Assembly (NCBI GenBank): GCA_012839295.1
Contig: DUNO01000066.1
Span: forward strand, 1-64,000
Direction: 5' to 3'
DNA from: Clostridiales bacterium
Lineage (GTDB): Bacteria > Bacillota > Clostridia > Lachnospirales > Lachnospiraceae
DNA length: 64,000 nt
This document shows positions 1-28,706 of the stretch, piece after piece. Each line of letters opens with the position of its first letter. Position 1 is the stretch's first letter. The notes beneath the pieces are model-generated. The model saw only the letters and a program-made list of their open reading frames with translations, had not been told where the DNA came from and searched no databases. Position numbers and translations under genes: made by a program.

Positions 1-47
1 CCCGTGCCTTTCACTTTTTGATGACCTATTCAAAAAGTGAATAGGCC
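1..47 (-). repeat. Hairpin leader repeat, copy A (family R2)
   Basis: Read on the minus strand this ends in GAAAGGCACGGG at the window edge, so the start codon it should precede lies outside the window. A perfect 10-bp stem pairs CACTTTTTGA (12-21) with TCAAAAAGTG (30-39); an alternative stem pairs CCTATTC (25-31) with GAATAGG (38-44), and the two exclude each other. The other copies are at 14206-14253 and 28658-28706. Confidence 0.75.
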
Positions 48-57
48 TTAATAAATA

Positions 58-82
58 GTTTGAAAGTGACTTTCTTTCAAAC
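58..82 (-). terminator. Intrinsic terminator-like hairpin
   Basis: GTTTGAAAG (58-66) pairs with CTTTCAAAC (74-82). On the minus strand it is followed by an AT-rich TATTTATT. It could end a transcript through the small ORF at 143-364 before the leader repeat at 1-47. Confidence 0.5.
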
Positions 83-142
83 TTATTCCAATCCTTCCGC
101 TCCTTCGGCTTAAGAACGAGCGGTGGATAGAATACTTTACTG

Positions 143-14205: not shown

Positions 14206-14253
14206 CCCGTGCCTTTCAATTTTTTTGATGACCTTTCAAAGAAATTGAATAGG
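14206..14253 (-). repeat. Hairpin leader repeat, copy B (family R2)
   Basis: This fills the whole gap between the sensor-protein stop codon (14254-14256) and the spacer before the kinase ATG. On the minus strand it reads CCTATTCAATTTCTTTGA, a loop, TCAAAAAAATTG and AAAGGCACGGG, then 7 nt to the ATG. The stem matches at 11 of 12 positions and its base pairs differ from copies A and C in a compensating way. Confidence 0.8.
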
Positions 14254-15252
14254 CTAGTCCATATCCCATTTTTCCATAAATTCTCTGACATTGTTCCGGT
14301 CAATGGTATATAGTCCCGTACTGACCGTATCACTGATCGGCTCCCCGTCCAGGGACTGTACCAGCTGCTTTACGGTATCATAGCCGATCTCATTTGCATC
14401 GGGACAGACGATACCATAGATTACACCATGGTCAATATAGTCCAGGGTCTGCTTTGTCACCCCGTACCCTACCATCTTAATATCACCTACCAGGTTATTA
14501 TCTACAAGAATCTGGGTAATACCCGGTGTACATTTTTCATCCATGCAGATGATCATATCCGGCTTGTTCGGATTATTGATAATTTGGGAGGCGATTTCCT
14601 CCGCCTCAAACATATCCGTATCCACCGTGTAAATACTGTCCTCCGGTATATTCATCATACCGTAGGAATCAAAGGAGTCCAGGATGCCCTGTATAATATT
14701 GTTCTTGTACTCTTCCTCTCCGTCATTGCCCTCATTGTTAATCACAACAGCAACATTTGCCTTGCCCCCGGTTGCCTCTACTGCCATATTGGCAGCATAA
14801 TATCCTAAATTATAGCTATTGGTGCCGACCATCGGTGTCTCCAGCACGGGATAATTATTATTCTCATAGGTAATAACAGCAATGCCCTGCTTCTTGGCAT
14901 CCTCAATAATCTGGCGCGTCTGGCTGACATCCGCCGCCTGGAGGGCAATTCCGTCAACGCCCGCATTCACCCCCATCTCCACGGCTTCCTTTAAGTTATC
15001 TACATTCAATTGCTTCAGGGTCACGATCTCAACATAGACCCCATATTCTTCCCCCGCCTTTTTTGCACCTTCCCGGAAGGTGGACAAAAAATTCTCATTC
15101 GTGCTCTGAACAACCAGTTGCAGGTGGTACCTGGGATTTTCCACCTTAATCTGCCGCTCCACGCCTGGATCCTTTCTTACAAAAAGGCTGGCATACATAG
15201 CTACCATAATCAGCAGCATCCCAATTAACACACCATAGATTCCCTTTAGCAT
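14254..15252 (-). CDS. Membrane-anchored sugar-binding sensor protein (XylFII type)
   Basis: A periplasmic-binding-fold protein (332 aa) held by one N-terminal helix, YGVLIGMLLIMVAMYASLFV; no lipobox Cys is present. The binding domain includes LQLVVQSTNENFLSTFREG, ALQAADVSQTRQIIEDAKKQG, VITYENNN, VATGGKANVAVVINNEG and VGYGVTKQTLDYIDHGVIYG. It heads the minus-strand operon sensor, kinase, regulator, XylF-like protein. In Clostridium beijerinckii XylFII is a membrane-associated xylose sensor that works through LytS and YesN; gene order and architecture match, so I infer the same role. The actual sugar is not proven. Only the R2 repeat separates it from the kinase gene. Confidence 0.85.
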   Translation of the reverse strand: MLKGIYGVLIGMLLIMVAMYASLFVRKDPGVERQIKVENPRYHLQLVVQSTNENFLSTFREGAKKAGEEYGVYVEIVTLKQLNVDNLKEAVEMGVNAGVDGIALQAADVSQTRQIIEDAKKQGIAVITYENNNYPVLETPMVGTNSYNLGYYAANMAVEATGGKANVAVVINNEGNDGEEEYKNNIIQGILDSFDSYGMMNIPEDSIYTVDTDMFEAEEIASQIINNPNKPDMIICMDEKCTPGITQILVDNNLVGDIKMVGYGVTKQTLDYIDHGVIYGIVCPDANEIGYDTVKQLVQSLDGEPISDTVSTGLYTIDRNNVREFMEKWDMD

Positions 15253-15499
15253 GATTCTCCGTCCTTTGTTATACTATAAATTTTATTTCCAGGTTACATT
15301 TCAGATGCATTGTATTAACATTGGCCATATGTTAAATTTTAACACACTTTGCCGTAAAATTGTATCCATTTTTCTCCTTCGTCAGGTTTTTTTATTATTT
15401 TGTTCCAGCCCCTGCCCGATAAAATACTTCCCCAACCTGTAACCGCTTTGACGGGAAGGAATATTATAGTAATAGTAAAATATAAAAGGAAGTGTTTCT

Positions 15500-16069
15500 T
15501 TGGCTATTAAAATTTTTATAGATCAAGGCCATAACCCAGTCGGATCCCACAATGCAGGTGCCGTCGGAAACGGACTTTATGAGAGTAATATCACTTACGA
15601 GGTTGGAGTATACCTGGCAGACCTATTAAACGCCGATCCGAGGTTCGAGGCACGTCTGTCACGTCCGACACCGACAACGGTGCTTGGGACTTCAAATGCG
15701 TCCAGCCTTGCGGAACGGGTACGCCTGGCAAATGAATGGCCTGCCGATTATTTCATCAGCATCCACTGCAACGCCAATAACAACCCGGCTATTAACGGAA
15801 CGGAAATATACATCTTCCAATTCAATACCCAGGCCCAGTGGTTAGCCCAGCAAATCATGGAGGGTATTACGCAGAATGTCGGTACAAGGAATAACGGTAT
15901 CCGTGAAAGGCCCTCCCTATATGTGCTGCGCAGAACCAACATGACCTCCCTGCTGATTGAGTTAGGCTATCTGACAAACTGGTCCGATGCCCAGAAGCTC
16001 CGGGATAACCCATATGGCTTTGCCTACGGGATCTATCTCGGGATTATGAGATATTTCGGCTTTGCATAG
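15500..16069 (+). CDS. N-acetylmuramoyl-L-alanine amidase (Amidase_3)
   Basis: A zinc amidase that cuts the bond between muramic acid and the peptide stem, 189 aa, consisting of the catalytic domain only. Visible features are FIDQGHNP (first zinc His, near residue 9), the Glu in NGLYESNITYEVG (near 28), FISIHCNANN (second His, near 86) and the catalytic Glu in SLLIELGYLTN (near 152). The start is a TTG at 15500 behind AAAGGAAG. There is no signal peptide or wall-binding domain, so it may act in the spore mother cell or leave by lysis. It stands alone, divergent from the sugar sensor gene, with no phage genes nearby. Confidence 0.9.
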   Translation: MAIKIFIDQGHNPVGSHNAGAVGNGLYESNITYEVGVYLADLLNADPRFEARLSRPTPTTVLGTSNASSLAERVRLANEWPADYFISIHCNANNNPAINGTEIYIFQFNTQAQWLAQQIMEGITQNVGTRNNGIRERPSLYVLRRTNMTSLLIELGYLTNWSDAQKLRDNPYGFAYGIYLGIMRYFGFA

Positions 16070-16269
16070 GTCCTAAGCACATCTGAGCATATTCAAGCAC
16101 ATAATTTATTTTGTAAGCCTGGTCCATATACCTGCAGGTCTGTTCCAGGCTTACAACCATGTCCACAAAACCTGCTTATAAAACAACTACAAAAAGATTT
16201 ATAAAATCAGTTTGCCAAAAAAGCTCAAAAAAGATTTACAAAATTTCTTAAAAATAACAAAAGAGGTGT

Positions 16270-16298
16270 TTACAAATTGACCTTGATATGTTAGAATA
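16270..16298 (+). promoter_or_regulatory. Promoter of the cold-shock gene
   Basis: TTTACA (16270-16275), a 17-nt spacer and TAGAAT (16293-16298). The predicted leader is about 130 nt long, as is common for cold-shock mRNAs, and holds the large hairpin at 16330-16380. Confidence 0.6.
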
Positions 16299-16329
16299 TC
16301 TTTAGTATTTTAATTGTCATGTATGAACT

Positions 16330-16380
16330 CACATATTTTTGTAAGTCATTAATGCATTTAATGATTTACGAAAATATGTG
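16330..16380 (+). promoter_or_regulatory. 23-bp leader hairpin with U-run (candidate attenuator) before the cold-shock gene
   Basis: Arms 16330-16352 and 16358-16380 pair over 23 positions with two G-U wobbles and a 5-nt loop, and ATTTTTTTA follows directly. Lying between promoter and gene, it has the form of an intrinsic terminator inside the leader, or of a strong structured 5' region. Confidence 0.65.
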
Positions 16381-16435
16381 ATTTTTTTATAAGTAATAAA
16401 ATACACAATATTAATTTTTTTTAGGAGGTAGTTTC

Positions 16436-16639
16436 ATGAACAACGGTACAGTTAAGTGGTTTAACGCACAGAAGGGATTCGGTTTCATTACTAACGATAA
16501 TGGCGGTGAGGATGTATTCGTACATTTCTCCGGTATCGCATCATCCGGATTCAAGACTTTAGAGGAAGGCCAGAAGGTTTCTTTCGATTTAGAGAAAGGC
16601 CAGAGAGGCATGCAGGCTGTTAACGTAACAGTTGCTTAA
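16436..16639 (+). CDS. csp: Cold-shock protein (CspA family)
   Basis: A 67-aa single-stranded nucleic-acid-binding protein, one cold-shock domain. RNP1 is KGFGFITN at residues 14-21 and RNP2 is VFVHFSGI near 28-35; the opening [10 protein letters not shown] and the ending QAVNVTVA are typical. The family melts RNA secondary structure and can prevent termination. GGAGGT stands 7 nt before the ATG. The gene is monocistronic, with a long structured leader upstream and a strong terminator at 16699-16725 downstream. Confidence 0.97.
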
Positions 16640-16698
16640 TTGTGGCAGTTGCTTGATTGCAACAATCACTTGGTTAATTGAAGTATATGCAGACCATA

Positions 16699-16725
16699 AG
16701 AGCTGATGCTGTGTGCATCAGCTCT
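16699..16725. terminator. Terminator after the cold-shock gene
   Basis: AGAGCTGATGC pairs perfectly with GCATCAGCTCT around TGTGT, followed by TTTTATG on the plus strand. The rlmH gene converges 8 nt beyond, and the opposite strand offers little U-run. Confidence 0.85.
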
Positions 16726-16733
16726 TTTTATGT

Positions 16734-17213
16734 CTATTTATGGTAGGGCTGGTTATGGTTAATGCGGTATGCCCGGTAAATCTGCTCCAATAATATCATT
16801 CTCATCAATTGGTGGGGGAATGTCATTTTAGAAAAGCTGAGCTGAAAGTCCGCCCGCTTTAGGACCTCGGCCGATAATCCAAGGGAACCCCCTATGATAA
16901 AGCTGACATGGCTGTTTCCTGAGACCCCAAGAGAATCCAGCTTTCCGGCCAACTCCTCCGAGGACAGCTGCCTTCCGTCTATGGCAAGGGCAACACAATA
17001 GGAATCCTCCTTCAAGGCCTTCAGTATCCGCTCCCCCTCTTTCCTCTTAATGATGTCCTCCGTTGCCGCAGAGGCATGATCAGGAGTTTTCTCATCCGCC
17101 AATTCAATCAGCTCCAGAGTGCAGTACCTTCCCAGGCGCTTTGCATATTCCTCCACGCCCTGGGAAAGATATCTTTCCTTTAGCTTACCCACACAAATCA
17201 GCGTTATTCTCAT
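16734..17213 (-). CDS. rlmH: 23S rRNA (pseudouridine-1915 N3) methyltransferase RlmH
   Basis: An SPOUT-class methyltransferase of 159 aa that methylates pseudouridine 1915 in helix 69 of 23S rRNA. It begins [16 protein letters not shown] and has the family's [25 protein letters not shown] (the knot loop that binds S-adenosylmethionine, near residue 105) and the C-terminal [20 protein letters not shown] and GQPYHK-like NHNQPYHK. The length is standard. Its start overlaps the end of the histidine phosphatase gene by 29 nt, so the two are probably one transcript. Confidence 0.97.
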
Positions 17214-17769
17214 TAGCTAATACATCCTTCTGCTCTTCTCTGATATATTCATATAATACGCCGTTCTTCACTATCTTTACCTTCTCACCTTCAAACCCCC
17301 GCCTGCGCAGCTCCTTCTGGAAGTTATAAAGCATAAAACCATGGAACACGATCAGTACATTTTCCTGTGACCAGTCAATCCGGTCCAGGAACTCATTAAT
17401 CCTCTGCCTGGTCTGCTTGATATTCTCCGGCTGGCTTTTTGACCTAAAGTACCAGGCAAGCCTTCCGCAGACATGCCATACCTCAAAGGGAAGCTTGATT
17501 CTTTCCGTATGAATAAAGGGAGCGTTATCTACTTCCCGGAGTAATTTATCAATGATAAGGTTCCCACTGTACACCTCTTTTGCCGTAGTTATGGCTCTCG
17601 GCAGATCACTGGCATAGCAAATGTCCCATTCGATCCCATACATTTCAACCTTATTTTTTATCACCTTTGATACCTCATATTTTTCCGACCATTCGCGGAA
17701 CTCCTTTGAGGTCATCATTTTCTTATGAGGGCAACTCACTTTAAAATGCCGTAATAATCCTATGCGCAT
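17185..17769 (-). CDS. Histidine phosphatase family protein
   Basis: A phosphoglycerate-mutase-fold protein of about 194 aa. It starts [11 protein letters not shown], so the usual RHG motif reads RHF, a substitution of the Gly. The other elements are [16 protein letters not shown] near residue 55, a possible second catalytic His in [16 protein letters not shown] near 140 and LREVDNAPF near 80. The start at 17769 is behind GGGAGAAAG; the longer frame to 17799 lacks a site. The substrate is unknown. It overlaps rlmH by 29 nt. Confidence 0.85.
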
Positions 17770-17799
17770 AGCTTTCTCCCGTTGGTATGTCATAAACAT

Positions 17800-18427
17800 G
17801 TACCCCTTCTGACATTAATCCTTGGGATACATCTCTTACCTACTATTCTACATACTTTTGCGAAGGATTTCAAGTAAAAGGTACCGTTGATTCAATTGTA
17901 AATATTTGTTTATTATTCTGTCTTAATCTTATTTTTTTCCGATTTGAGCGATAATGTTCACAAAAAATATTTAATTTATCCATAATTTACTCATATCTGC
18001 CCTTTATACTATATGAAGGATGAAACAGTAAGCTGCTTTATCCTTCATGCAGCCGATTTTCTTACGCAGGACGGATCCAGGCTGATCCGCTTGCCATAGA
18101 TAGGAAGCCCGGCTGTCATGAACCAAAAAAGTGAGATGAATATATTCACTCTCCTCCTCCCTACAATATAAATGATATCGAACCGGAGAAATTCGTGCTA
18201 CGGATTTCTCCGGTTCGCGTTTTGCCGGCTTTCTTATATTTTCAAAATAATTTATAGCTTATTTTATGCTTTTTATTTTCTTTTTATAATATCTTCACAA
18301 TATATACACATTTCCCATGTATCCTTTATACATAGACAGTGATAAAACACTTTCTACTCCCACCCTATTATACGCTATGGTTATACAGCTCCCCTGCTGT
18401 ATAACAAAAAAGCGCATAGCAGCCTCT
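17800..18427. other. 628-nt gene-free region with several hairpins
   Basis: No convincing ORF. It holds a nested set of stems from 18014 to 18120 (listed separately), a perfect 14-bp hairpin at 18179-18217, and the tandem terminator hairpins of the YibE/F gene at 18381-18449. Confidence 0.6.
18014..18222 (+). ncRNA. Candidate structured RNA
   Basis: TGAAGGAT (18014-18021) pairs with ATCCTTCA (18040-18047). Then CATGCAGCCG (18046-18055) pairs with CGGCTGTCATG (18110-18120), enclosing CGGATC/GATCCG (18072-18077 with 18084-18089). A perfect 14-bp hairpin (18179-18192 with 18204-18217) followed by CGTTTTG could end it. A TATACT lies just upstream at 18005. Strand and transcription are inferred. 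Confidence 0.35.
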
Positions 18428-18449
18428 TTAAAGAGACAAGCTGCTATGC
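18381..18449 (-). terminator. Tandem terminator hairpins of the YibE/F gene
   Basis: GCATAGCAGC (18414-18423) pairs with GCTGCTATGC (18440-18449) and is followed on the minus strand by GCTTTTTTG; a second hairpin TTATACAGC/GCTGTATAA lies at 18381-18404. The stop codon of the gene (18428-18430) lies in the loop of the first hairpin. Confidence 0.8.
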
Positions 18450-19585
18450 ACTTTTTTTATTCCCCTGGTAAATAATAGGCCACAGACCAGAGCCGTAAAG
18501 GGTGCGACGGTAACCAGCCCAATGCTGCCTATCAAGGTCTCCAGGATCTCGGAGGCTATGTATTTGTAATTAAGGATATTGTAAATCGGTGTTCCCTGAG
18601 CCATAAACACCATCAGCAGGGATATATATCCCCCTGAATATGCCAATAATAGGGTCGTTGTCTGTGTCCCTATTGCGGCACGTCCCACATTGATGCCGGA
18701 ACGGGCCGCCTCCTTCCAGGTTATTTCCGGTTTATGCTCCACGACCTCCCAGACAGAGGAAGTGATATCTACGGCCAAATCCATAACCGCACCGGAGGAT
18801 CCGATAAAAATACTCGCCATAAAGATGCTGGTCAGGTTCAGATGGGAGAAGCCGCTATAGAGCAGGCTTTCCGAATAAGGCATTACCGCACCATGGATAT
18901 TGTACATTCCGGTAAATAAAATTCCAAGCAGCGCCGTCATGCCTATCCCCAATAAGGAGCCAAGGCTGGCCGCCAGCGCTTTCTCATGCACCCCGTATAC
19001 AAGGACTGCTATCACGACAGTTAATACAAGACATATCATCAGACCCAGAAGTACCGGGTTGAAGCCCTTCAGACAGCTGGGCACCAATACCTTCCATATC
19101 ATCAGGATGGTAATCGCAAAGGAAAGAACCGCCCTGATACCGCTAGTCCCGGCAAACAATACTAAAAGCACAACGAAAATGCCCGCCAGGATAAGCTCCT
19201 TATCCAACCGGTAATGGTCGATCATACTAATCGAGTAAATGGCATCTCCCTCATAGCTGATTAGCACCTGTGCCCGGTCACCACTGCCAAATATCTTATC
19301 CTGCTCTAAGGAACCGTTCAGCATATTCACTGCCGTAACGATTTCCCCTTTAAATTTACCCCCAAGAAGCTTTACCCTGCATCTTTGCTCCCCTGTTTGT
19401 ATTAAGCCCGTACTGACTAACATGCTATTGTCGGTTGAGATAATTTCCCCAATAGTACGGTCAGCCCCCTGGTAGATTACCGCATCTTCATATCCTGTGG
19501 GTAAAAGAACCAGAAGTATCAGAATAAAGAGACTGGCTACAATCGTTACGACGGACATCATTCTTTCCTTACTGAATTTAATCAT
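18428..19585 (-). CDS. YibE/F family membrane protein
   Basis: A multi-spanning membrane protein of 385 aa of the YibE/F family, whose function is not established. After an N-terminal helix (VVTIVASLFILILLVLLP) there is an extracytoplasmic region of about 100 residues with GGKFKGEIVTAVNMLNG, typical of the family. About seven hydrophobic segments follow, with SSGAVMDLAVDITSSVWEV near residue 265 and GTQTTTLLLAYSGGYISLLM near 308, the best conserved blocks. Its last codons are part of the terminator stem. It lies downstream of the alkaline phosphatase gene on the same strand, with 168 nt and a large hairpin between, so it may be in its operon. Confidence 0.88.
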   Translation of the reverse strand: MIKFSKERMMSVVTIVASLFILILLVLLPTGYEDAVIYQGADRTIGEIISTDNSMLVSTGLIQTGEQRCRVKLLGGKFKGEIVTAVNMLNGSLEQDKIFGSGDRAQVLISYEGDAIYSISMIDHYRLDKELILAGIFVVLLVLFAGTSGIRAVLSFAITILMIWKVLVPSCLKGFNPVLLGLMICLVLTVVIAVLVYGVHEKALAASLGSLLGIGMTALLGILFTGMYNIHGAVMPYSESLLYSGFSHLNLTSIFMASIFIGSSGAVMDLAVDITSSVWEVVEHKPEITWKEAARSGINVGRAAIGTQTTTLLLAYSGGYISLLMVFMAQGTPIYNILNYKYIASEILETLIGSIGLVTVAPFTALVCGLLFTRGIKKVHSSLSL

Positions 19586-19650
19586 ACTGCTATGCCGCTC
19601 CTTAATAAATCATTGCTTTTATGATACTGTATTCCCATAATACATTCCCA

Positions 19651-19706
19651 TCGGGCTGCCAGGCGCAGGCATTCCTTTGGCTTTGCCTGCAGTTGGCAGC
19701 CCGACG
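19651..19706 (-). promoter_or_regulatory. Large nested hairpin between phoA and the YibE/F gene
   Basis: The outer stem TCGGGCTGCCA pairs with TGGCAGCCCGA, and an inner stem GCAGGCA pairs with TGCCTGC. No U-run follows on either strand, so an mRNA-processing or stabilising role is likelier than termination. Confidence 0.5.
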
Positions 19707-19753
19707 GGTCTGCCGCTTCCGCTGAATAAGCACCATACCTCCTACGGCTGGGG

Positions 19754-21280
19754 TTATTTTACCTTTGTAAGCTTTGCTACGCTATCATAAATATCCGTAT
19801 TATCGTAATAGCCTTCAAATAACTCGGCTCCATTTCCTATAGCAAAGACCGGAACCGGCAGTCCCGTATGGGAATAGGAGGTAAAATCGATGCCTGATTT
19901 GTTATTCAGGATATGCGTAATTGTTACGGTTAACGGTTCATAGGTACCATATAATACATACTCTTCCTGATCCAGCTTTTCGGGTTTATTCATCGTCATA
20001 TCATAAGCCTCAGATAAGCGGTTATACTCATAATCTGTCAGGATCAGTTTGGCGTTTGCAGCCGCAGTAGCCTTGCTCTTTGGCACCAGCCCGAAATACT
20101 TCTGGATATCCTCCAATACAGCGGTGAATTTCGTGTTATTCTTCTTGTAGCCTGCCACAAAATCCGAATCATACTTTGCATAAGAGATCTTTTGGTTTTC
20201 CAGGTTCGTTAAGTAGGTATCATAGTCCGTACCGGCAAAGCCGATTGTTAACCCGCCTGTCTCATGGTCTCCCGTAACTAAGATCAAGGTATCTTCCGGG
20301 TGCTTATTGTAAAAGTCAATTGCCACATCAACTGCATTGCCAAGAGCCACTGTATCATGGATTGTAGAAGTAGCGTCATTCGCATGACATGCCCAGTCAA
20401 TCTTGCCGCCTTCCACCATCATGAAAAAGCCCTTTTCGTTATCCAGCATTTCGATTCCTTTTTCTACATAGTCCGCAAGATGCCATTCGTTGCTTGTCGC
20501 ATCAAGTTCATAGGGCATAGCGCCCCCATCAGCGATTTTCTCGGAGATTATAATGGATTTCCCATACCCTTTTCTCAGGCCTTCCGCAGCAGCCTTGGTC
20601 CTAACCACCCTGTAGCCGGCCTTTTTAGCCAGATCATAGATGCTTTCCTTACTATTATCGCTGCCTGCCGGCTTTAAGAGCTCCCCACCGGCGAAATAAT
20701 CAAATCCGCTTGCTATCATTTCCTGGCCAATCTCGTAATAGTTATTTCTGGAAGCCTGATGGGCATAGAAGGCGGCAGGAGTCGCATGGTTAAGGTTTAC
20801 AGAGCTGATGATACCAATTTTATAGTCCATCTGCTTTTTCAGCTTTTCCGCAATCGTCTCATAGGACACCTTAAAGGAAGTATCCATATTGATTGTTCCG
20901 CTGTAGGTCTTATGCCCGGTGGAAATAGAAGTCGCCGTAGATGCCGAATCCGGGCAGAAGGAGGTGCTGTCAAAGGTCTGTGCTGAACCGGCTACCGGAA
21001 AATTCATGAAGCTCAGAGCCTGTGTTTTCACTCCTCCCTTTGATGCTGTTGTTCCCAAATAATAGGAAGTCGCCTGGATCTGGGGATAGCTCATACCATC
21101 ACCAATAAACAGGAAAATGTACTTGGGGACAGTGGCCCCCGTTTCTTTAATAACCTTGCTGATACTCGTCTTACTGGCAGACGCATTTACATTATTGTTG
21201 TAATTAGGGATGATAATTGTCGCTGCGATTAGTAATACCATCAATAATGCACTTAGAATTCTCTTTGACTTACCTTTCAT
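19754..21280 (-). CDS. phoA: Alkaline phosphatase (PhoA family)
   Basis: An exported phosphomonoesterase of 508 aa that frees phosphate from organic esters. The signal peptide is KRILSALLMVLLIAATIIIP, with cleavage probably near ASA at residue 34. The metal site FLFIGDGMSYPQ lies near residue 58, the catalytic Ser is in CPDSASTATSISTGHKT near 110, and the zinc ligands appear in GKIDWACHANDA near 295 and VTGDHETGGLTIGF near 338. The C-terminal GLPVPVFAIGNGAELFEG block is also typical. A Pho-box-like direct repeat lies about 80-95 nt upstream of the start. Confidence 0.94.
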   Translation of the reverse strand: MKGKSKRILSALLMVLLIAATIIIPNYNNNVNASASKTSISKVIKETGATVPKYIFLFIGDGMSYPQIQATSYYLGTTASKGGVKTQALSFMNFPVAGSAQTFDSTSFCPDSASTATSISTGHKTYSGTINMDTSFKVSYETIAEKLKKQMDYKIGIISSVNLNHATPAAFYAHQASRNNYYEIGQEMIASGFDYFAGGELLKPAGSDNSKESIYDLAKKAGYRVVRTKAAAEGLRKGYGKSIIISEKIADGGAMPYELDATSNEWHLADYVEKGIEMLDNEKGFFMMVEGGKIDWACHANDATSTIHDTVALGNAVDVAIDFYNKHPEDTLILVTGDHETGGLTIGFAGTDYDTYLTNLENQKISYAKYDSDFVAGYKKNNTKFTAVLEDIQKYFGLVPKSKATAAANAKLILTDYEYNRLSEAYDMTMNKPEKLDQEEYVLYGTYEPLTVTITHILNNKSGIDFTSYSHTGLPVPVFAIGNGAELFEGYYDNTDIYDSVAKLTKVK

Positions 21281-21358
21281 ACTCCATCTCCTTTAAAGCA
21301 TATTTATAATTACATTTTAACTATACCAAAGGGTCTGTAAAATCTTCCAGCATTTCAC

Positions 21359-21375
21359 TGTTAATATTAGGTTAA
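21359..21375 (-). promoter_or_regulatory. Candidate PhoP box upstream of phoA
   Basis: On the minus strand TTAACC, 5 nt, TTAACA, the 11-nt period of Firmicute PhoP boxes. A TATAGT that could be the -10 lies at 21322-21327, placing the box at about -40 to -60. Confidence 0.4.
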
Positions 21376-21390
21376 GATCATGTAATATAA

Positions 21391-21422
21391 GTTATCAGAA
21401 GTTGTATTCCAAACTTCTGATA
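21391..21422 (-). promoter_or_regulatory. Palindrome upstream of phoA
   Basis: TTATCAGAAGTT pairs perfectly with AACTTCTGATAA across an 8-nt loop. It lies between the CNNM gene and phoA. It could be an operator or the terminator of the CNNM gene; the U-run is weak. Confidence 0.45.
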
Positions 21423-21568
21423 AAAAGCGCTGTTTTTGTGCCGTGCATCCCGATTATCGGAACATATACTTGGTTCCGATATATGCCCACACAGAAAAAG
21501 AGCATATAAACCGGCAGCTCTGCCCTATTTACATGCTCTCTTTACGGATCTATACGATTTTATTTATT

Positions 21569-22921
21569 TCATACTTCTTCGTCTACGTTTTTCACGGTGT
21601 CCGCATCTGCTGGAAGCTTCATGATCCTTACCTGCTCCGTCATCTTATTCCTGGTCTCCAGGACATCAAACTGGTACCCCTGATAAACCAGGGTCGCCTG
21701 TTCACCATCTCCGGGAATCCTGTCCATTAAGGAAATCAATAATCCGTTCAGGGTATCAAAATCTTCATTCTGAAGACTGATCCCCAGCTCATCCTCCAAC
21801 TCCTCGAGGCTGATTGCTCCTTTTACCGTGATACTTTCATCGTCGGAGGAGATCACCATGGCCTCTTCCTCATCATATTCATCCTGGATATTTCCAACAA
21901 TCTCTTCAAGCAGGTCTTCCAATGCTACCAAGCCTGCCGTTTGCCCATACTCATCTATCACGATAGCCATATGGATGTTCTTGGACTGCATATCGTGAAG
22001 CAGGATACTGATATTCTGTGTATCTGGTACAAAATAAGGTTCTCTGGCGATTTCTTCAATCGGCTTATTTTTCAGCTCTTCCGATATGTAAGCACATATG
22101 ACGTCCTTCATGTGCAGGATGCCGATAATATTATCCCGGTTCCCTTCATAGAGCGGATACCTGGAATAATTCTCCGACAGCATATAACGCAGCGCTTCTT
22201 CCAATGACATTTCCGTGTTAACTGCCACGATTTTCTTCTTCGGTGTCATAATATCCTGGGCTTCCTTGTCACCAAGCTCTATGATGTTAGAAATCATTTC
22301 TACCTTATCAGCGTCCAGGACACCTTGCTCCTGGCCTTCATTCACCATGGAAATAATCTCTTCCTCGGTTACATTATCCGTCAAGTCAAAGGGCTTGATG
22401 CCGAAGAGCCGCAGCAGGAGGTTTAATATGGCCTCCAACAGCCAGGCAATCGGATAAAACACAAAGCCAAAGAAACGGATAATCCCAACCAGCCGATATG
22501 CAATTACTTCCGCATATTTGGTGGCAAACCGCCTTGGGATAATCAGGCCAAACAGTACTGCAACATATACCAAAAGTACAGTAAACAGGATATAGTAGAT
22601 CGGCCTGATGATTGCAAGGTCAACCACTAATCCGCTATTTACCGTAGCTTTTTCAATTGTCGGCAGAAAGTATGCCAGAAAGACCATGCCTGTCACTACG
22701 CCAATAAAGCTTTGTAATAGCTCCAGCACGTTAACATATCTGCTCGGCTTTTCAATAATCCTAAGAAGCCTCCTTGCACTTTTCTGGCCGCTGTCAGCCT
22801 TCCTTTTTACATTATTCTCGCTTACATTACTAATTGCATTTTTTGCGCAAACAATTAATGCATTAAATAGAATCAGCAATAAGATAATTATCATTCCCGA
22901 TATGGGATTGCCATCGTCCAT
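21569..22921 (-). CDS. CNNM/CorC-type membrane protein with CBS domains
   Basis: A hemolysin-III/CorC family protein of 450 aa, probably handling divalent cations such as Mg2+. The N-terminal DUF21 part has four hydrophobic segments (SGMIIILLLILFNALIVC, FIGVVTGMVFLAYFLP, IYYILFTVLLVYVAVLFGL, FFGFVFYPIAWLLEAIL). Then NVTEEEIISMVNEGQEQGVL leads to two CBS domains (DIMTPKKKIVAVNTEMSLEEAL and VPDTQNISILLHDMQSKNIHMAIVIDE), and a C-terminal transporter-associated domain follows. The usual ALSAAETA at the first helix is replaced by ALIVCAKNAIS. It may be cotranscribed with phoA. Confidence 0.9.
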   Translation of the reverse strand: MDDGNPISGMIIILLLILFNALIVCAKNAISNVSENNVKRKADSGQKSARRLLRIIEKPSRYVNVLELLQSFIGVVTGMVFLAYFLPTIEKATVNSGLVVDLAIIRPIYYILFTVLLVYVAVLFGLIIPRRFATKYAEVIAYRLVGIIRFFGFVFYPIAWLLEAILNLLLRLFGIKPFDLTDNVTEEEIISMVNEGQEQGVLDADKVEMISNIIELGDKEAQDIMTPKKKIVAVNTEMSLEEALRYMLSENYSRYPLYEGNRDNIIGILHMKDVICAYISEELKNKPIEEIAREPYFVPDTQNISILLHDMQSKNIHMAIVIDEYGQTAGLVALEDLLEEIVGNIQDEYDEEEAMVISSDDESITVKGAISLEELEDELGISLQNEDFDTLNGLLISLMDRIPGDGEQATLVYQGYQFDVLETRNKMTEQVRIMKLPADADTVKNVDEEV

Positions 22922-23065
22922 TGTATGATTATGTCCATGCCTATCATTTCAGGCATTGCCCTTACACCGCACAGCTCGCCTTGAAAGTGCTGGCATGGAC
23001 CCGGTCCCCCCTTCTTTCATTAGTTTCATTTTTTTTAACCTTTATTCTCCTTTTTCCTTTGGTAT

Positions 23066-23431
23066 TTATTTATAATATGTATCTAAAGAAAAACTGATGA
23101 TTAATGCCCTATCAATTTTCTTTAATACATCCCTGTCCAGATGACACACTTTTTCTTTCAGCCGCGATTTGTCAATGGTACGGACCTGCTCTAACAATAT
23201 TACAGAATCCTTGACAATGCCGTATTTATCAGCATCCAGTTCAACATGGGTCGGCAGCTTTGCCTTATTCATCTTAGATGTTATCGCTGCGCAAATTACT
23301 GTTGGACTATGCTTATTACCTGTATCATTCTGAACAATCAAAACCGGTCTGACACCGCCCTGTTCGGATCCGACTACCGGCCTTAAATCCGCATAGAAGA
23401 TATCTCCTCTTTTAATGACCACTTTATTCAC
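23066..23431 (-). CDS. ndoA: MazF/NdoA-type endoribonuclease toxin
   Basis: An mRNA interferase of the PemK/MazF family, 121 aa, with the family opening [29 protein letters not shown] (residues 8-36, including the catalytic Arg and loop) followed by [22 protein letters not shown] and [16 protein letters not shown], closely like Bacillus NdoA. In Bacillus the antitoxin gene sits between alr and ndoA; here the 271 nt between alr and this gene contain no open frame but hold an R1 repeat copy. The antitoxin must be elsewhere or missing. A GTG/ATG upstream choice is not needed: the ATG at 23431 fits the family. Confidence 0.93.
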
Positions 23432-23471
23432 ACTCCAATATTAGGCTTAACCTTATTATTGCCATTTTTTT

Positions 23472-23580
23472 CGTGTGTATACCATGTTAATAAACTTCCA
23501 TGGTATGTGGCACTCCGTGCCAAGATGTGCACTCGCCCTGCCAGATGGCAGTAAAGTGAATACAGTCTAATATCAAATAT
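23472..23580 (+). repeat. Multi-hairpin intergenic repeat, copy b (family R1)
   Basis: It carries TACCATG/CCATGGTA arms, GGCACTCCGTGCC, AAGATGTGCACTCGCC and TCTAATATC. The 3' hairpin is degenerate compared with copies a and d. It lies where the antitoxin gene of the alr-ndoA region would normally be. Confidence 0.75.
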
Positions 23581-23702
23581 GTGATCTTAGGAATAGTCAG
23601 AATATAAAATGAACCGGAACTAATAGTTTAACTATTCCTTATCATAAACTTCATATTTTACAAAGGTATATTCTGCGGCAAGGCCCCAAGCTTTACGTCT
23701 AT

Positions 23703-24926
23703 CTAAAATGATACTGTTCCTCGGCTGTCATGCTCCAGTTCAATGTATACCCTGGGAATCCTCTTCCCCACGGTACAGATAAGTTCATAGGCAAAGGAAT
23801 GGGACCACTGGGCTAATTCCTCTGCAGAAATATAAGCTTCACCGTCTCTTCCGAGCAAAGTGACGGTATCACCCTGCTTTACCTCCGGCAGGTCCGTGAC
23901 ATCCACCATGAACTGATCCATGCAGATCCGTCCGACAATCGGTGCATACTGTCCATGGATAATTACCTTTCCATGGTTTGAGAGGTTCCTGGAATATCCG
24001 TCCGCATATCCGACGGGAATTGTCGCTATCCTTCTTGGCTGGTCGGTGACATAGGTCGCACCATAGCTGATGCCCACTCCGGCCTCCACGTCCTTTACAT
24101 AGATCACATGGGTTTTTAATTCCATGGCCGGGATCAGCTTAACTTCCTCTTGGTCAACCGTATCGGAGGGATATATGCCATAGGTGGCAATTCCACACCG
24201 GACCATATTAAAATATGCCTGAGGGAACTCGAGTATACCAGCACTATTTGCAATATGCTTCACCGGTATGAAAATCTGCTCCTTTTCCAGCCGGGCAACA
24301 AAGCTTGTGTACCGTTCCAATTGGCTCAGGGTACATGCCTTATCCGTTTCATCCGCCCTTGCAAAATGGGAAAACAGGCCTTCAATTTCAAGGTTCGGCA
24401 ATGCGGCGATCCTCTTGATTTCCTCCACGCTGTCCGGCGTATCTGAAAATCCGATACGGCTCATTCCTGTATCCAGCTTGATATGGATCTTCGCCGTCTT
24501 TCCCTGCCGCACAGCCTCCTTGGACAAAGCCTCTGCCATCTCATATTGAAAAACCGTCTGCGCCACATCATAAGAAACTACCTGGTCATATTGCTCCTTC
24601 GGCGTATACCCCAGGATTAACATTGGTGTATCAATACCAGCCTCCCGCAATTCAATGGCCTCTTCAATAATCGCAACACCGTAGGCGTCAATTTTTCCGC
24701 TTTCCCCCATTGCCTTGGCAAGGGGTACCGCACCATGCCCATAGGCATCTGCCTTGATGATGACCATCAGCTTCGTATTACTCCCCAGCTTATTTCTCAC
24801 TGCTAAAAGGTTATGCCTGATTGCATTTAAATCCACCCTTGCCTGCACTCTATAGTAACGTTTATCCATCCGTGCACATTCTACTTTCATAATATTATCG
24901 CTAGCCTTTCCCTGTGTCTGATCCAT
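23703..24926 (-). CDS. alr: Alanine racemase
   Basis: A PLP enzyme interconverting L- and D-alanine for peptidoglycan. The PLP-binding Lys is in MVIIKADAYGHGAVPLA near residue 58, the second-base Tyr in GVGISYGATYVT near 290, with IHIKLDTGMSRIGF near 145 and VGRICMDQFMVDVTDLP near 335. The core MDKRYYRVQARVDLNAIRHN begins at residue 20, so the family-typical start may be 24869; an ATG at 24890 has GGAAAGG upstream. The longest frame is reported because no site is decisive. It lies after nnrDE on the same strand with 44 nt between. Confidence 0.94.
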   Translation of the reverse strand: MDQTQGKASDNIMKVECARMDKRYYRVQARVDLNAIRHNLLAVRNKLGSNTKLMVIIKADAYGHGAVPLAKAMGESGKIDAYGVAIIEEAIELREAGIDTPMLILGYTPKEQYDQVVSYDVAQTVFQYEMAEALSKEAVRQGKTAKIHIKLDTGMSRIGFSDTPDSVEEIKRIAALPNLEIEGLFSHFARADETDKACTLSQLERYTSFVARLEKEQIFIPVKHIANSAGILEFPQAYFNMVRCGIATYGIYPSDTVDQEEVKLIPAMELKTHVIYVKDVEAGVGISYGATYVTDQPRRIATIPVGYADGYSRNLSNHGKVIIHGQYAPIVGRICMDQFMVDVTDLPEVKQGDTVTLLGRDGEAYISAEELAQWSHSFAYELICTVGKRIPRVYIELEHDSRGTVSF

Positions 24927-24970
24927 GCCACAAATTTCATGGAATACTCTTTAGCCATCCATCTGTAATT

Positions 24971-26533
24971 TTATAGTGTACCCTCCAATGCTCCGCTTGC
25001 CTTCTTAAGTACATCCCCCAGTGAATCTATAATATCACTTGCCATCAAGGAGTATACTCCCTTCTCCCTCGCTGCTGCATCACCTGCCAGGCCATGGATA
25101 TATACTCCCAGGCAGGCTGCCTCATATTCCACCATTCCCTGGGCCATGAGTGCCGCAATGATTCCTGTAAGCACATCCCCGCTGCCGCCGGTAGCCATGC
25201 CGTTATTGCCGGATACATTGAGATACCGTTTCATTTCCTGTACCACGAAAGTTCTGGCATCCTTTATGGCGTATATCAACTTATTATTATAAGAACATTG
25301 ATTCGCAGTGTCAACCAAATTATTGGAAATCTCTGCAACGGAAACCCCCATCAACCTGGCCAGCTCCAGTAAGTGCGGTGTCAGAATTGTATTTTCCTTT
25401 AACAGCGATGCCAGCTTCCTCCATCTGTCCCGGATCCCTGCCTCCTGATTATGGTCAAGCATTCCCGCAAGCAGGTTGATGGCATCCGCGTCAATAATTA
25501 CCGGCACTGTTGCCTTATTGATTACTGTTTCCACCAGCTCCTTTGCCGTTGCCGTCAAGCCCAGCCCCGGCCCCACTACAACGGCGGATGCCCATTCCAG
25601 TTCCCTCAGGAGCTTATGCTGCCTTTCCTCACTATCTGCGCCTTCCCCGTCGTAGGAGGAGAATAAAGCCTCCGGCAGCAGGGTTTGGAGAATCAGACGG
25701 TTCGCCTCCGAGGTCATTAGCTTTACAAGCCCTGCACCCGTCCGGTAAGCTGCCTTGCCGGACAGGTAAGCCGCACCGCCCATACCCTTGCTGCCTGCTA
25801 TGATTAGTACCTTACCAAAGCTTCCCTTATGTCCATCCCTTCTTCTCCCTGGAAGCCTTTCCAGATCCACGGGCTCATAATACCGAACCCCAGGTTCTAC
25901 CTGATCTGTGGCAGCCTGTGGAAATCCGATATCAGCCACCGTCAGCTTTCCCGCATATTCTGCTCCCGGATAAAGAACCAGACCCAGCTTATTATGCCCG
26001 AAGGTAACCGTTTCATCTGCCTTCACCGCCAGCTTCATCACCTGTCCATTATCCGCAGAAATCCCGGAGGGAAGATCCACCGAATAGACATAATGCCGTC
26101 CCTGGTTGATCCTCTTTATAATTTCCTCATACTCACCTGATACAGGCCTTGATAACCCTACTCCAAAGAGGGCATCAATTATTATATTATATTCAGGCAG
26201 CCTGTCTCTGTTTTCCATCGGAATCCCAATTCTTTTCGCCATTTCAAGCTGGAGCTTCATGGAATCAGAGGCCTTATTTTCCTCTCCAATAAAAAGAATA
26301 GCAACATGATAGCCCTGTAAATACAGAAGCCTACCTGCTGCAACCCCATCTCCTCCATTATTCCCGGCACCGCAAACCGCTAAGATGCGATCCGGCTGGT
26401 CGATCCTTTTCTTCATTACACGGACGACCTCCATCGCTGCCCGTTCCATTAACTCTAACGCCGGAATCCCGGCTGTCCGTATGGTATAATCATCTATCTT
26501 CTTCATTTCTTCAGAATTCACAGCATATCTCAT
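24971..26533 (-). CDS. nnr: Bifunctional NAD(P)H-hydrate epimerase/ADP-dependent dehydratase
   Basis: A repair enzyme for hydrated NADH and NADPH, 520 aa. The N-terminal epimerase half has MRYAVNSEEMKKIDDYTI, VCGAGNNGGDGVAAGRLL near residue 55 and VYSVDLPSGISADNGQ near 140. The C-terminal dehydratase half has KGSFGKVLIIAGSKGMGGAAYLS near 240, VVGPGLGL near 325, ILTPHLLELARLMG near 390 and NNGMATGGSGDVLTGIIAALMAQG near 450. The start at 26533 follows GGAGGATTGGGT; the open frame runs on to 26632 only because the acpS tail repeat is also open in this frame. It is 17 nt past acpS. Confidence 0.95.
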   Translation of the reverse strand: MRYAVNSEEMKKIDDYTIRTAGIPALELMERAAMEVVRVMKKRIDQPDRILAVCGAGNNGGDGVAAGRLLYLQGYHVAILFIGEENKASDSMKLQLEMAKRIGIPMENRDRLPEYNIIIDALFGVGLSRPVSGEYEEIIKRINQGRHYVYSVDLPSGISADNGQVMKLAVKADETVTFGHNKLGLVLYPGAEYAGKLTVADIGFPQAATDQVEPGVRYYEPVDLERLPGRRRDGHKGSFGKVLIIAGSKGMGGAAYLSGKAAYRTGAGLVKLMTSEANRLILQTLLPEALFSSYDGEGADSEERQHKLLRELEWASAVVVGPGLGLTATAKELVETVINKATVPVIIDADAINLLAGMLDHNQEAGIRDRWRKLASLLKENTILTPHLLELARLMGVSVAEISNNLVDTANQCSYNNKLIYAIKDARTFVVQEMKRYLNVSGNNGMATGGSGDVLTGIIAALMAQGMVEYEAACLGVYIHGLAGDAAAREKGVYSLMASDIIDSLGDVLKKASGALEGTL

Positions 26534-26541
26534 ACCCAATC

Positions 26542-26700
26542 CTCCATTTTTTAGGAGGATTTGTCCTCCATTTTTTCGGAGGATTTGTCCTCCAGCTTTT
26601 CGGAGCAGTTGTCCTCCAGCTTTTTGGAGCATTTGTCCTCCAGCTTTTCAGAGGCTTCATCCTCCACCCTTTCATAGGATTTAGCCTCCATCCTTTCGGA
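26542..26700. repeat. 24-bp tandem repeat array (acpS tail)
   Basis: About six to seven units of 24 bp; the cleanest are 26554-26577 and 26578-26601. GGAGGATTTGTCCTCC occurs at 26554-26569 and 26578-26593, and each copy is a 6-bp stem with a 4-nt loop. The distal units are more diverged. The array runs across the acpS stop codon to the nnr ribosome-binding site. Confidence 0.85.
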
Positions 26701-27063
26701 AGCTTCGGCCTCTCCTACCGCAAATGCATTGGCAAACTCCTTTGTGTTTGAAATTGAAATATGGATCGCAGTGATTCCCTGGGCCTTTGCCAGCTCCTGT
26801 GCCCTGCCGTAAAGCTTAACAAAGGGTTTTCCCTGGCCGTCACGCAACACCTCGATATCCTTTGGCCCAAAGCCGCGGAAGCCCGTTCCAAGCACCTTTG
26901 CTACCGCTTCCTTCACTGCGAAATTATCAGCGGCCTTTTTCTTGTCCGCATGAACCAGCTCAAGCTCCGCTTCCGTAAAACACCGCAGCACGAAGGCTTC
27001 CTTTTCGCAGGCCCTCACAACACGGTCTATTTCCACTAAATCCACTCCAATTCCGGTAATCAC
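26551..27063 (-). CDS. acpS: Holo-[acyl-carrier-protein] synthase with an octapeptide-repeat tail
   Basis: AcpS transfers phosphopantetheine from CoA to apo-acyl carrier protein. The start is a GTG at 27063 behind TTGGAGGCTTGAT. The core shows ITGIGVDLVEIDRV (magnesium Asp) and FAVKEAVAKVLGTGF near residue 55 and HISISNTKEFANAFAV near 105, where the family normally ends (about 120-125 aa). About 50 residues follow, built from an 8-residue unit of the type SEKLEDKC, six copies of decreasing perfection. The DNA unit is 24 bp and contains GGAGGA; the last, partial unit supplies the ribosome-binding site of the next gene. The tail is probably recent and dispensable. Confidence 0.92.
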   Translation of the reverse strand: MITGIGVDLVEIDRVVRACEKEAFVLRCFTEAELELVHADKKKAADNFAVKEAVAKVLGTGFRGFGPKDIEVLRDGQGKPFVKLYGRAQELAKAQGITAIHISISNTKEFANAFAVGEAEASERMEAKSYERVEDEASEKLEDKCSKKLEDNCSEKLEDKSSEKMEDKSS

Positions 27064-27079
27064 ATCAAGCCTCCAACAG

Positions 27080-27694
27080 CTACTTTTTAATATGGTACTC
27101 CTTATCAAAGAGCTCCATCAGCTCCGCTCCAAGCACATCATGCATATATGAATAAATCTGTGTATTGTTTACCTCCAGATCCTGCTTGAGCAGTATCTTA
27201 TGTTTGAGCTCCTCCCGGATGCTATTGATCCAGTCGGCAACCTGGCTTAATTCCTCTTTGTTCTTTTCCAGGCGTTCATAAAACAGGGCAACACTTTCCG
27301 ACATCAGGGCTTCATTTGCCTCCTTAATCTGGTAAGGCAGATCCCCTAATTCATCCATTGCCAGCTCTATCTTTTCATTCAATTCCGTAATGAACTGCTT
27401 ATTCCTGCCCAGCTTTTTATCCTTCTCCTTGCCGGCATTATCCCTGCCGATGTCCATGTTATCCATGATTTCCTGCATCAGGCCGTTCTTCAGCTTCTTC
27501 ATATCCTTAATATCATTGACCAGCTTCCCCTGTTTTTTCAAAAGGTCATTTACCTGCTGTTCTAATTCCTTTATTGCAGATGTCTTCCGGTCCTCAGTAA
27601 ATATTTCATGCCAGCGTCCGTCAAGTGTCAGGATCGGCAGTTTTTTGTCTTTTACCAATTTATGAAATTCACTTTTTTTCTCTTTTCTAGCCAT
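27080..27694 (-). CDS. Coiled-coil protein of unknown function
   Basis: A charged, almost wholly helical protein of 204 aa. It begins MARKEKKSEFHKLVKDKKLPILTLDG, and two long coiled-coil stretches are visible (AIKELEQQVNDLLKKQGKLVNDI near residue 40 and LNEKIELAMDELGDLPYQIKEANEAL near 105). There is no membrane segment, metal site or nucleotide motif. It sits 17 nt before the acpS start and about 90 nt after rex, in what looks like one minus-strand run of genes. I do not recognise it beyond a likely clostridial conserved protein. Confidence 0.75.
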   Translation of the reverse strand: MARKEKKSEFHKLVKDKKLPILTLDGRWHEIFTEDRKTSAIKELEQQVNDLLKKQGKLVNDIKDMKKLKNGLMQEIMDNMDIGRDNAGKEKDKKLGRNKQFITELNEKIELAMDELGDLPYQIKEANEALMSESVALFYERLEKNKEELSQVADWINSIREELKHKILLKQDLEVNNTQIYSYMHDVLGAELMELFDKEYHIKK

Positions 27695-27783
27695 AGGCAG
27701 ACATTCCGACCCTTTCCATCCAATCAGCGAACTATATTTTCTAAGTGAAGTTTATTTTAAATGAATTATATTTTTAATGAAAT

Positions 27784-28425
27784 TTATTTCATTTCTTCCC
27801 TTTTCCCGGACAAGCGATAGGAAAGCTTCATCAAGCTATCCGCCAGGTGGACATTTTCCACGGTAACATCCTTCGGTAAATTAAGGTCCGTCGGGGCGAA
27901 GTTCCAGATCCCCTTGACCCCCCACTTCACTAATTCATTGGCAACCCCGGGAGCCTTTGTCTTTGGAACCGTAATTGCGGCAATATCCACCTTATTATTT
28001 CGGATATATTCCTCCAGCTCCTCATTCGCCCTTACGGTAATTCCCCGTATCTCCGTGCCGATCAATGCCGGGCTGATATCAAAGATGCTTCTGACGTAAA
28101 AGCCCCTTCTTTCGAAGTCCGTGTAGTTAGCCAGAGCCTGTCCCAAATTACCGGCTCCAATAATAATAACATTATATTTTGTATCCAATCCAAGGATTTT
28201 GCCGATCTCTGAATGAAGATATTCCACGTTATAACCGTATCCCTGCTGCCCAAAGCCTCCAAAATTATTTAAATCCTGCCTGATCTGGGATGCAGTCACC
28301 CTCATTTTCTCGCTTAATTCCTTGGAAGAGATCCGTACAACATCCTTCTCCAACAAATCCCCCAGATAGCGGTAATATCTTGGTAATCTATTAATGACTG
28401 CTTTCGAAATTTCTTTTTTATACAA
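27784..28425 (-). CDS. rex: Redox-sensing transcriptional repressor Rex
   Basis: An NADH/NAD+-sensing repressor of fermentation genes, 213 aa. The winged helix at residues 1-80 has ISKAVINRLPRYYRYLGDL, RISSKELSEKMRVTASQIRQDLNNFGGFGQQGYGYNV, very close to family consensus. The Rossmann domain has the NADH-binding VIIIGAGNLGQALANY near residue 87, FDISPALIGTEIRG and AAITVPKTKAPGVANELVKWGVKGIWNFAP. The gene is divergent from the ABC-F gene across 289 nt. Rex would repress genes for NADH-consuming fermentation pathways when NADH is low. Confidence 0.96.
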   Translation of the reverse strand: MYKKEISKAVINRLPRYYRYLGDLLEKDVVRISSKELSEKMRVTASQIRQDLNNFGGFGQQGYGYNVEYLHSEIGKILGLDTKYNVIIIGAGNLGQALANYTDFERRGFYVRSIFDISPALIGTEIRGITVRANEELEEYIRNNKVDIAAITVPKTKAPGVANELVKWGVKGIWNFAPTDLNLPKDVTVENVHLADSLMKLSYRLSGKREEMK

Positions 28426-28657
28426 TGGTTCTCCTCCTGTTCCAAAGTTCCCCCTATCTTTTGCGGGACTTTTTTAACTATAACAATAATTATATGCAAT
28501 CGTTAAGAATAAGTCAATGTATTGCAGCATGATATCTCTCCATAACAGGTACTAATTAACTAATTTTAACACAATAACAGGCAGGGCAAAAGTATTCCGG
28601 TGATCCTGGCTTTACTTGAAGGAATTCCTATGTTAAAATTAACAACGGAATAAATGT

Positions 28658-28706
28658 GGCTTGTTCCATTTTTTTGAATAGGCCATAAGAAAATGAAAGG
28701 CACGGG
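28658..28706 (+). repeat. Hairpin leader repeat, copy C (family R2)
   Basis: GTTCCATTTTTTTGAATAGG then CCATAAGAAAATG and AAAGGCACGGG, ending 8 nt before the ATG of the ABC-F gene. CATTTTTTT pairs with the AAGAAAATG arm. This places GAAAGGCACGGG at the same distance from a start codon as copy B. Confidence 0.75.

Follow-up and report, generated by a model that had tools for sequence, protein, structure and literature searches.

Within contig C77 (DUNO01000066.1) of a Clostridiales bacterium of the family Lachnospiraceae, the initial 64 kb, referred to here as the window, contain three copies of a dispersed hairpin that stands immediately upstream of start codons. This hairpin is probably a non-coding, non-autonomous mobile element of ~90 nucleotides (nt), which prefers translation start sites and carries a substitute Shine-Dalgarno sequence (SD). 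Comparison of related genomes shows, at the level of sequence, insertion close to start codons in one orientation, retention of the native SD upstream, a patchy distribution, and covariation of a stem that would mask the carried SD. A preliminary description of the window had proposed a dispersed, leader-supplying hairpin docked 7–8 nt before ATG and had left its mobility open; the docking recurs across the genome, and mobility is now supported by empty orthologous sites together with the patchy distribution. The literature search brought up no mobile hairpin leader docked at start codons.

The element comprises, in order, hairpin 1, a spacer, hairpin 2, and GAAAGGCACGGGTRTA. Its consensus runs through AAGTTTGAAAGAAAGTCACTTTCAAAC (hairpin 1), TATTTATTAAGG CCTATTCACTTTTTGAATAGGTCATCAAAAAGTGAAAGG (hairpin 2), CACGGGTRTA, and three variable bases to the ATG. 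In the source genome (6.36 Mb, 82 contigs, 97.9% complete), the exact 12-mer GAAAGGCACGGG occurs at 52 sites, versus none for the backward-read control pattern. A 22-copy covariance model, with the ATG included, gave 73 matches in this genome at E<=0.01 (125 candidates scored) and 79 at E<=1; as the latter search scored 150 of 4393 first-look candidates, copies may be missed, and its weakest matches are doubtful. The copies range from near-identical full-length ones, through diverged ones in which hairpin 1 reads GGTTGAAA/TTTCAACC, to others without the 5' part. Many contigs of the genome terminate within copies, as would be expected for exact repeats in a short-read assembly. A palindromic version, whose GGCACGGG ends face both ways, is located at C77:153737-153843, and a TGTTTGTRCTGCCTACGGCAGCAT hairpin directly precedes the element in three copies (C30:~40560, C37:~14350, and C63:~27160).

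Orthologous sites provide a view of insertion. In sister species, orthologs lacking the element have an SD next to the ATG; at occupied sites, the element lies between the native SD and the ATG. For azlD, the sister genome G012 reads GGAAAGGAGTCATGAAGC-ATG, and the source genome reads GGAAAGGAGCAATGA, the element, and AAC-ATG, with the same picture at hslR, atpF, ecfT, pgk, and leuD. Among the orthologs listed, empty sites account for 4/4 at azlD, 2/2 at hslR, 7/7 at pgk, 6/6 at leuD, 1/1 at atpF, and 4/5 at ecfT, where G012 is the occupied exception and each of the two genomes carries its own subtype. Six of the seven listed G012 orthologs of genes occupied in the source genome are empty and the seventh has a shortened copy, while all eight listed source-genome orthologs of G012-occupied genes are empty. 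One G012 copy, L275, precedes the ATG of a 12-codon frame; the source genome keeps both the stretch and the ATG without that copy. Because the ATG is already found in empty sites, it is not brought by the element, and the idea of an element-supplied ATG was rejected.

Conservation among copies is lost 3 nt before the ATG, and the 3' junction was placed mainly by this loss because the 3' end of the element itself resembles native spacers. In 21 chosen pairs, the three bases before the ATG agree with the empty site at 40 of 63 positions, versus 22.3 by permutation. In 39 copies, the left flank pairs with the anti-SD at a mean of -8.4 kcal/mol versus -5.0 for sequence 40–100 nt further up, and -8 kcal/mol or better is reached by 23/39 flanks versus 19/117 of the more distant stretches, these energies being computed with a 16S tail presumed from relatives. 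The earlier remark that no AGGAGG is present is corrected here: an SD-like sequence is often there, located upstream of the whole element. No target duplication is evident in the filled and empty pairs, whose junctions are uncertain by a few nt, the 5' one especially. At L353 (G012 C176), the element lacks its 5' part and the membrane-protein gene upstream lacks its end, a joint loss suggesting that copies with short 5' ends can arise by later deletion. As a separate observation, a dispersed repeat of ~120 nt (GCATCGATATCCACCT...GTCTGCGCCCAG) occurs at C56:~24030-24130 and C2:~16770-16890 of the source genome; its C56 copy seems to hold an inserted leader element, and its C2 copy has none at that place.

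The distance to the start codon is narrowly distributed. When copies are selected by the exact motif, independently of the ATG, an ATG follows at exactly 7 nt in 37 of 50 readable copies and at 6–8 nt in 42, two further copies being cut by contig ends. A broader table of 80 places, consisting of 73 model matches and 7 motif-only places, of which 6 are cut and 74 readable, has the ATG at 7 nt in 55, at 8 nt in 4, at 6 nt in 3, at other distances in 4 (one of them, C21, with a second ATG at 7 nt), and nowhere in 8; this figure leans upward because most places came from the model that includes the ATG. In G012, the first ATG stands at 7 nt in 15 of 22 listed distinct exact-motif copies and at 6–8 nt in 17. 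Frames of at least 75 codons are opened by 47 of the 63 docked ATGs of the source genome, and gene starts are ~25-fold enriched at docked ATGs relative to the intergenic ATGs of the window, judged by rough gene calls.

The leader is also predicted to fold (z = -6.3 for a typed full-length leader), with two mutually exclusive stems: CCTATTCAC/GTGAAAGG masks the SD, and CCTATTC/GAATAGG leaves it free. In 49 hand-picked distinct compact copies, 93.2% of the cells of the masking stem are paired; double changes affect 7 pairs versus 2.7 in shuffles (reached by 2 of 500) and 22 cells versus 8.4 (reached by none of 500), and slid versions of the stem attain at most 6 pairs and 9 cells. This covariation is strong, but the counts do not amount to a probability, the copies being related. 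The covariation at the stem ends first noticed in the window thus extends over these 49 copies, and the genome-wide model search proposed along with it yielded many copies, most of them with the ATG at 7 nt. For the SD-free stem, GGCCUAUUC/GAAUAGGYC, 93.5% of cells are paired versus 15–48% when slid. The masked fold is predicted to be favoured by ~5 kcal/mol in the hairpin alone of the compact type, and the SD-free stem is predicted to win in the G012 loop-insert type and the G029 type (the forced fold of the latter was not used). Folding of complete leaders is predicted to mask GAAAGG in window copies A (with downstream bases added by the analyst) and B and in L254; copy C leaves it mostly open, and the G012 type partly so. 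GAAAGG-CAC-GGGTG can pair with the 16S tail as a split SD at a predicted -13.4 kcal/mol versus -13.6 for a canonical one, on a tail that we presume from relatives rather than from the species itself.

In RNA thermometers and other SD-masking leaders, a hairpin preceding the start codon holds the SD in its closing stem, and the element shares this arrangement; it differs in being apparently mobile, in preceding unrelated genes, in a predicted stem too stable to melt, and in its second exclusive stem. The simple thermosensor suggested earlier is disfavoured, since GAAAGG in the masked leaders is predicted to stay mostly paired up to 65 °C and that of copy C to be mostly open at every temperature tried; riboregulation by folding is putative. 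It is very improbable that the element is a structured regulatory RNA of a regulon, riboswitch-like or thermometer, multiplied via shared gene control. The two exclusive stems and the covariation of the SD-masking one would suit such an RNA, but the downstream genes are unrelated (pgk, era, leuD, fliG, argR, trmD, histidine kinases, and ABC proteins, under names presumed in part from the sequences), the same genes lack the element in sister species, and near-identical copies point to recent spread. Moreover, the masked state is predicted to be stable to 65 °C while some subtypes are open, and no Rfam family reached the gathering threshold in the window, with two copies giving only far sub-threshold matches.

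Several observations weigh against a mobile element with start-site preference. Docking is not confined to gene starts: among the 63 docked ATGs, 16 fail to open a frame of 75 codons, and an ATG is missing at 8 of the 74 readable places. Among these 16 are a probable frame-shifted start of a gene (C75), copies that precede genes with their own SD (C67, C45, C40, and C21), one copy ahead of a tRNA gene (C57), and copies beside apparently convergent genes (C47, C51, and C66). In addition, 33 of 34 genomes of the genus and 4 of 27 others contain a hairpin-free ribosome-binding site (RBS) shaped like that of the element, GAAAGGYACNGG-N5-8-ATG (its backward control matches in 5 of 61 genomes), so that part of the element set may be native RBSs; the hairpin-free form may be the native type that gave the element its end, or a relic of old insertions. 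Covariation of the SD-free stem does not exceed that of shuffles, as would be expected if both stems hold its 5' arm. Lastly, searches for Y1 transposases, Y1 loci, reverse transcriptases, and Y2 transposases found no mobilising enzyme.

The prevalence of the hairpin-free RBS across the genus is also what would follow if GAAAGGYACNGGTRTA were an RBS native to the genus and its hairpin version spread mainly by recombination between RBS regions, that is, by gene conversion. Copies would then have a fixed 3' end and a variable 5' end without any mobile-element insertion, and indeed several copies in the source genome lack the 5' part and keep the 3' end intact; in relatives, too, argR, hisH, nadD, and trmD have the pattern without the hairpin, and era has it in a looser form. 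Gene conversion is nevertheless unlikely to be the main route, because the empty sites at azlD, hslR, atpF, and leuD have other SDs with no visible likeness to the element, and the source genome holds full-length copies at these four genes with the native SD still upstream. At L353 in G012, later deletion would explain the missing 5' part, since the upstream gene lost its end along with it.

At E<=0.01, with 125 candidates scored per genome, the model found hairpin copies in 6 of the 34 genus genomes (73 in the source genome, 31 in G012, 9 in G029, 2 in G016, and 1 each in G031 and G002) and none in the other 28. An exact 19-base pattern matched 21 stretches in a collection of named genomes; 17 of them belong to records titled Herbinix, and the other 4 (Elusimicrobiota, Atribacteria, Pontibacter, and Bacteroides) have no ATG at 6–8 nt. 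An element search of a plasmid collection gave no match, and two element patterns had no exact match in IMG/VR. A different, small hairpin rich in G+C (GCCGN..CGGC type) stands right before a GAATGGAGG-type SD in several genes of the genus, as seen at L139 (leuD), L350, L343, and L212 (pgk of G004), and may be a further class of dispersed pre-SD hairpin.

An enzyme moving the element was sought among several classes. Y1_Tnp has no match in the source genome, G016, or G031, and it is present in G012, G029, and G002 as well as in element-free genomes; 20 Y1 loci of relatives contain no significant element match, three matches lying at E 1–2.2. Y2_Tnp, the transposase domain of IS91-like elements, has no match in the source genome or G012 and one in G016. 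The reverse transcriptase domain RVT_1 is represented in the source genome by a fragment and one complete frame, which we take to be of the group II intron type; as 14 of the 34 genus genomes, among them 4 of the 6 that bear the element, contain RVT_1, no link to a reverse transcriptase is claimed. A very long frame at L312 (G016 C97) joins an RVT_1-like part to an apparent membrane protein, and a similarly long frame with RVT_1 exists on G012 C157. A source locus on C2, where three copies cluster among ordinary-looking genes, was considered and dismissed by eye, the listed frames including no transposase.

The closest known counterparts are the palindrome-associated transposable elements (PATEs) of Haloquadratum, which, according to PMC3119063, are short, lack a transposase gene and terminal inverted repeats, have palindromes near both ends, and produce no target duplication. 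The present element is likewise short and transposase-free with hairpins near both ends, and there is no complementarity between the two ends of its consensus, AGTTTGAAAG... and ...GGGTRTA; it thus has no terminal inverted repeats, which also separates it from miniature inverted-repeat transposable elements. It could accordingly be supposed to be an IS200/IS605-derived PATE moved by a Y1 transposase, with the ATG as the complement of the target motif, and the two near-terminal hairpins, the lack of evident target duplication, and the fixed motif beside one end would fit. This derivation is doubtful, however, given the absence of Y1_Tnp from three element-bearing genomes, its presence in genomes without the element, and the 20 Y1 loci, whose best element match is at E 1. 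The element also differs from PATEs in docking before start codons, in its built-in SD, and in showing no sequence link to an IS605-type transposon in those 20 loci. PATEs have a short fixed targeting oligonucleotide next to one end; the ATG might play this part, at 3 nt from the end of the element rather than directly beside it. It is not filed as a PATE because the tested link to Y1 transposases failed.

Other dispersed repeats are less similar. The pneumococcal BOX, RUP, and SPRITE repeats are described in PMC3049150 as small, folded, dispersed, probably parasitic, and able to alter leaders, which resembles the element; those repeats are reported to be overrepresented between convergent genes, whereas the element is mostly right at start codons and in one orientation. 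REP sequences, as treated in PMC2817692 along with the RAYT transposases, are dispersed extragenic hairpins thought to be non-autonomous, with a GTAG/GTGG head at the hairpin foot. The element is also a dispersed and probably non-autonomous hairpin, but without such a head, and its source genome is without a Y1-type gene.

In the mobile-element model favoured here, the element would insert ~3 nt before an ATG and would mostly come to lie in the spacer that separates the native SD from the start codon. Its 3' end (GAAAGG-CAC-GGG-TRTA) would be a ready-made RBS able to replace the displaced native SD, and insertion would be tolerated for this reason. The carried SD would drive translation, the leader would fold in two exclusive ways with the SD masked or free, these folds may tune translation, and movement would depend on an enzyme acting in trans.

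The copies in the window and their neighbouring genes are listed below. All three had been noted before, and the docking distances of copies B and C and the abutment of copy B on the upstream stop codon proved accurate; copy A is longer than was recognised, extending from 84 down to 1. An unrelated array of 24-nt tandem repeats (TCCTCCANNTTTTNGGAGNATTTG type) occupies 26516-26731 within predicted frames.

Copies of the leader element in the window, with adjacent features (window coordinates)
Feature	Coordinates	Strand	Description
Copy A	1..84	-	Full-length: hairpin 1, hairpin 2, and GAAAGGCACGGG; the contig edge cuts the 3' end and hides the start codon
Histidine kinase gene downstream of copy B	12687..14198	-	Identified by domain matches
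ATG 7 nt after copy B	14196..14198	-	Start of sensor histidine kinase (His_kinase, HATPase_c, HAMP)
Copy B	14206..14254	-	Hairpin 2 and GAAAGGCACGGG, without hairpin 1; occupies the whole gap between two genes
Gene upstream of copy B (Peripla_BP_4)	14254..15252	-	Stop codon touches the element, one base in common
Copy C	28658..28706	+	Hairpin 2 and GAAAGGCACGGG; SD-free fold predicted
Gene downstream of copy C	28715..30694	+	ATG 8 nt after the copy; two ABC_tran and ABC_tran_Xtn, ABC-F type

Small mobile repeats tend to survive at sites of little consequence; this element lands between the SD and the start codon, and it seems to persist thanks to the substitute SD that it carries. Tentatively, it may represent a new kind of mobile element that targets translation-initiation sites, defined by the SD spacer and the ATG, and carries a two-state translation switch; such targeting might perhaps proceed via mRNA or the ribosome. 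If so, initiation would be rewired wherever such a start-site-reading element lands. The family also raises the question of which machinery locates start codons in DNA. The same genes with and without the element constitute natural matched pairs in which the effect of leader structure on translation could be measured.

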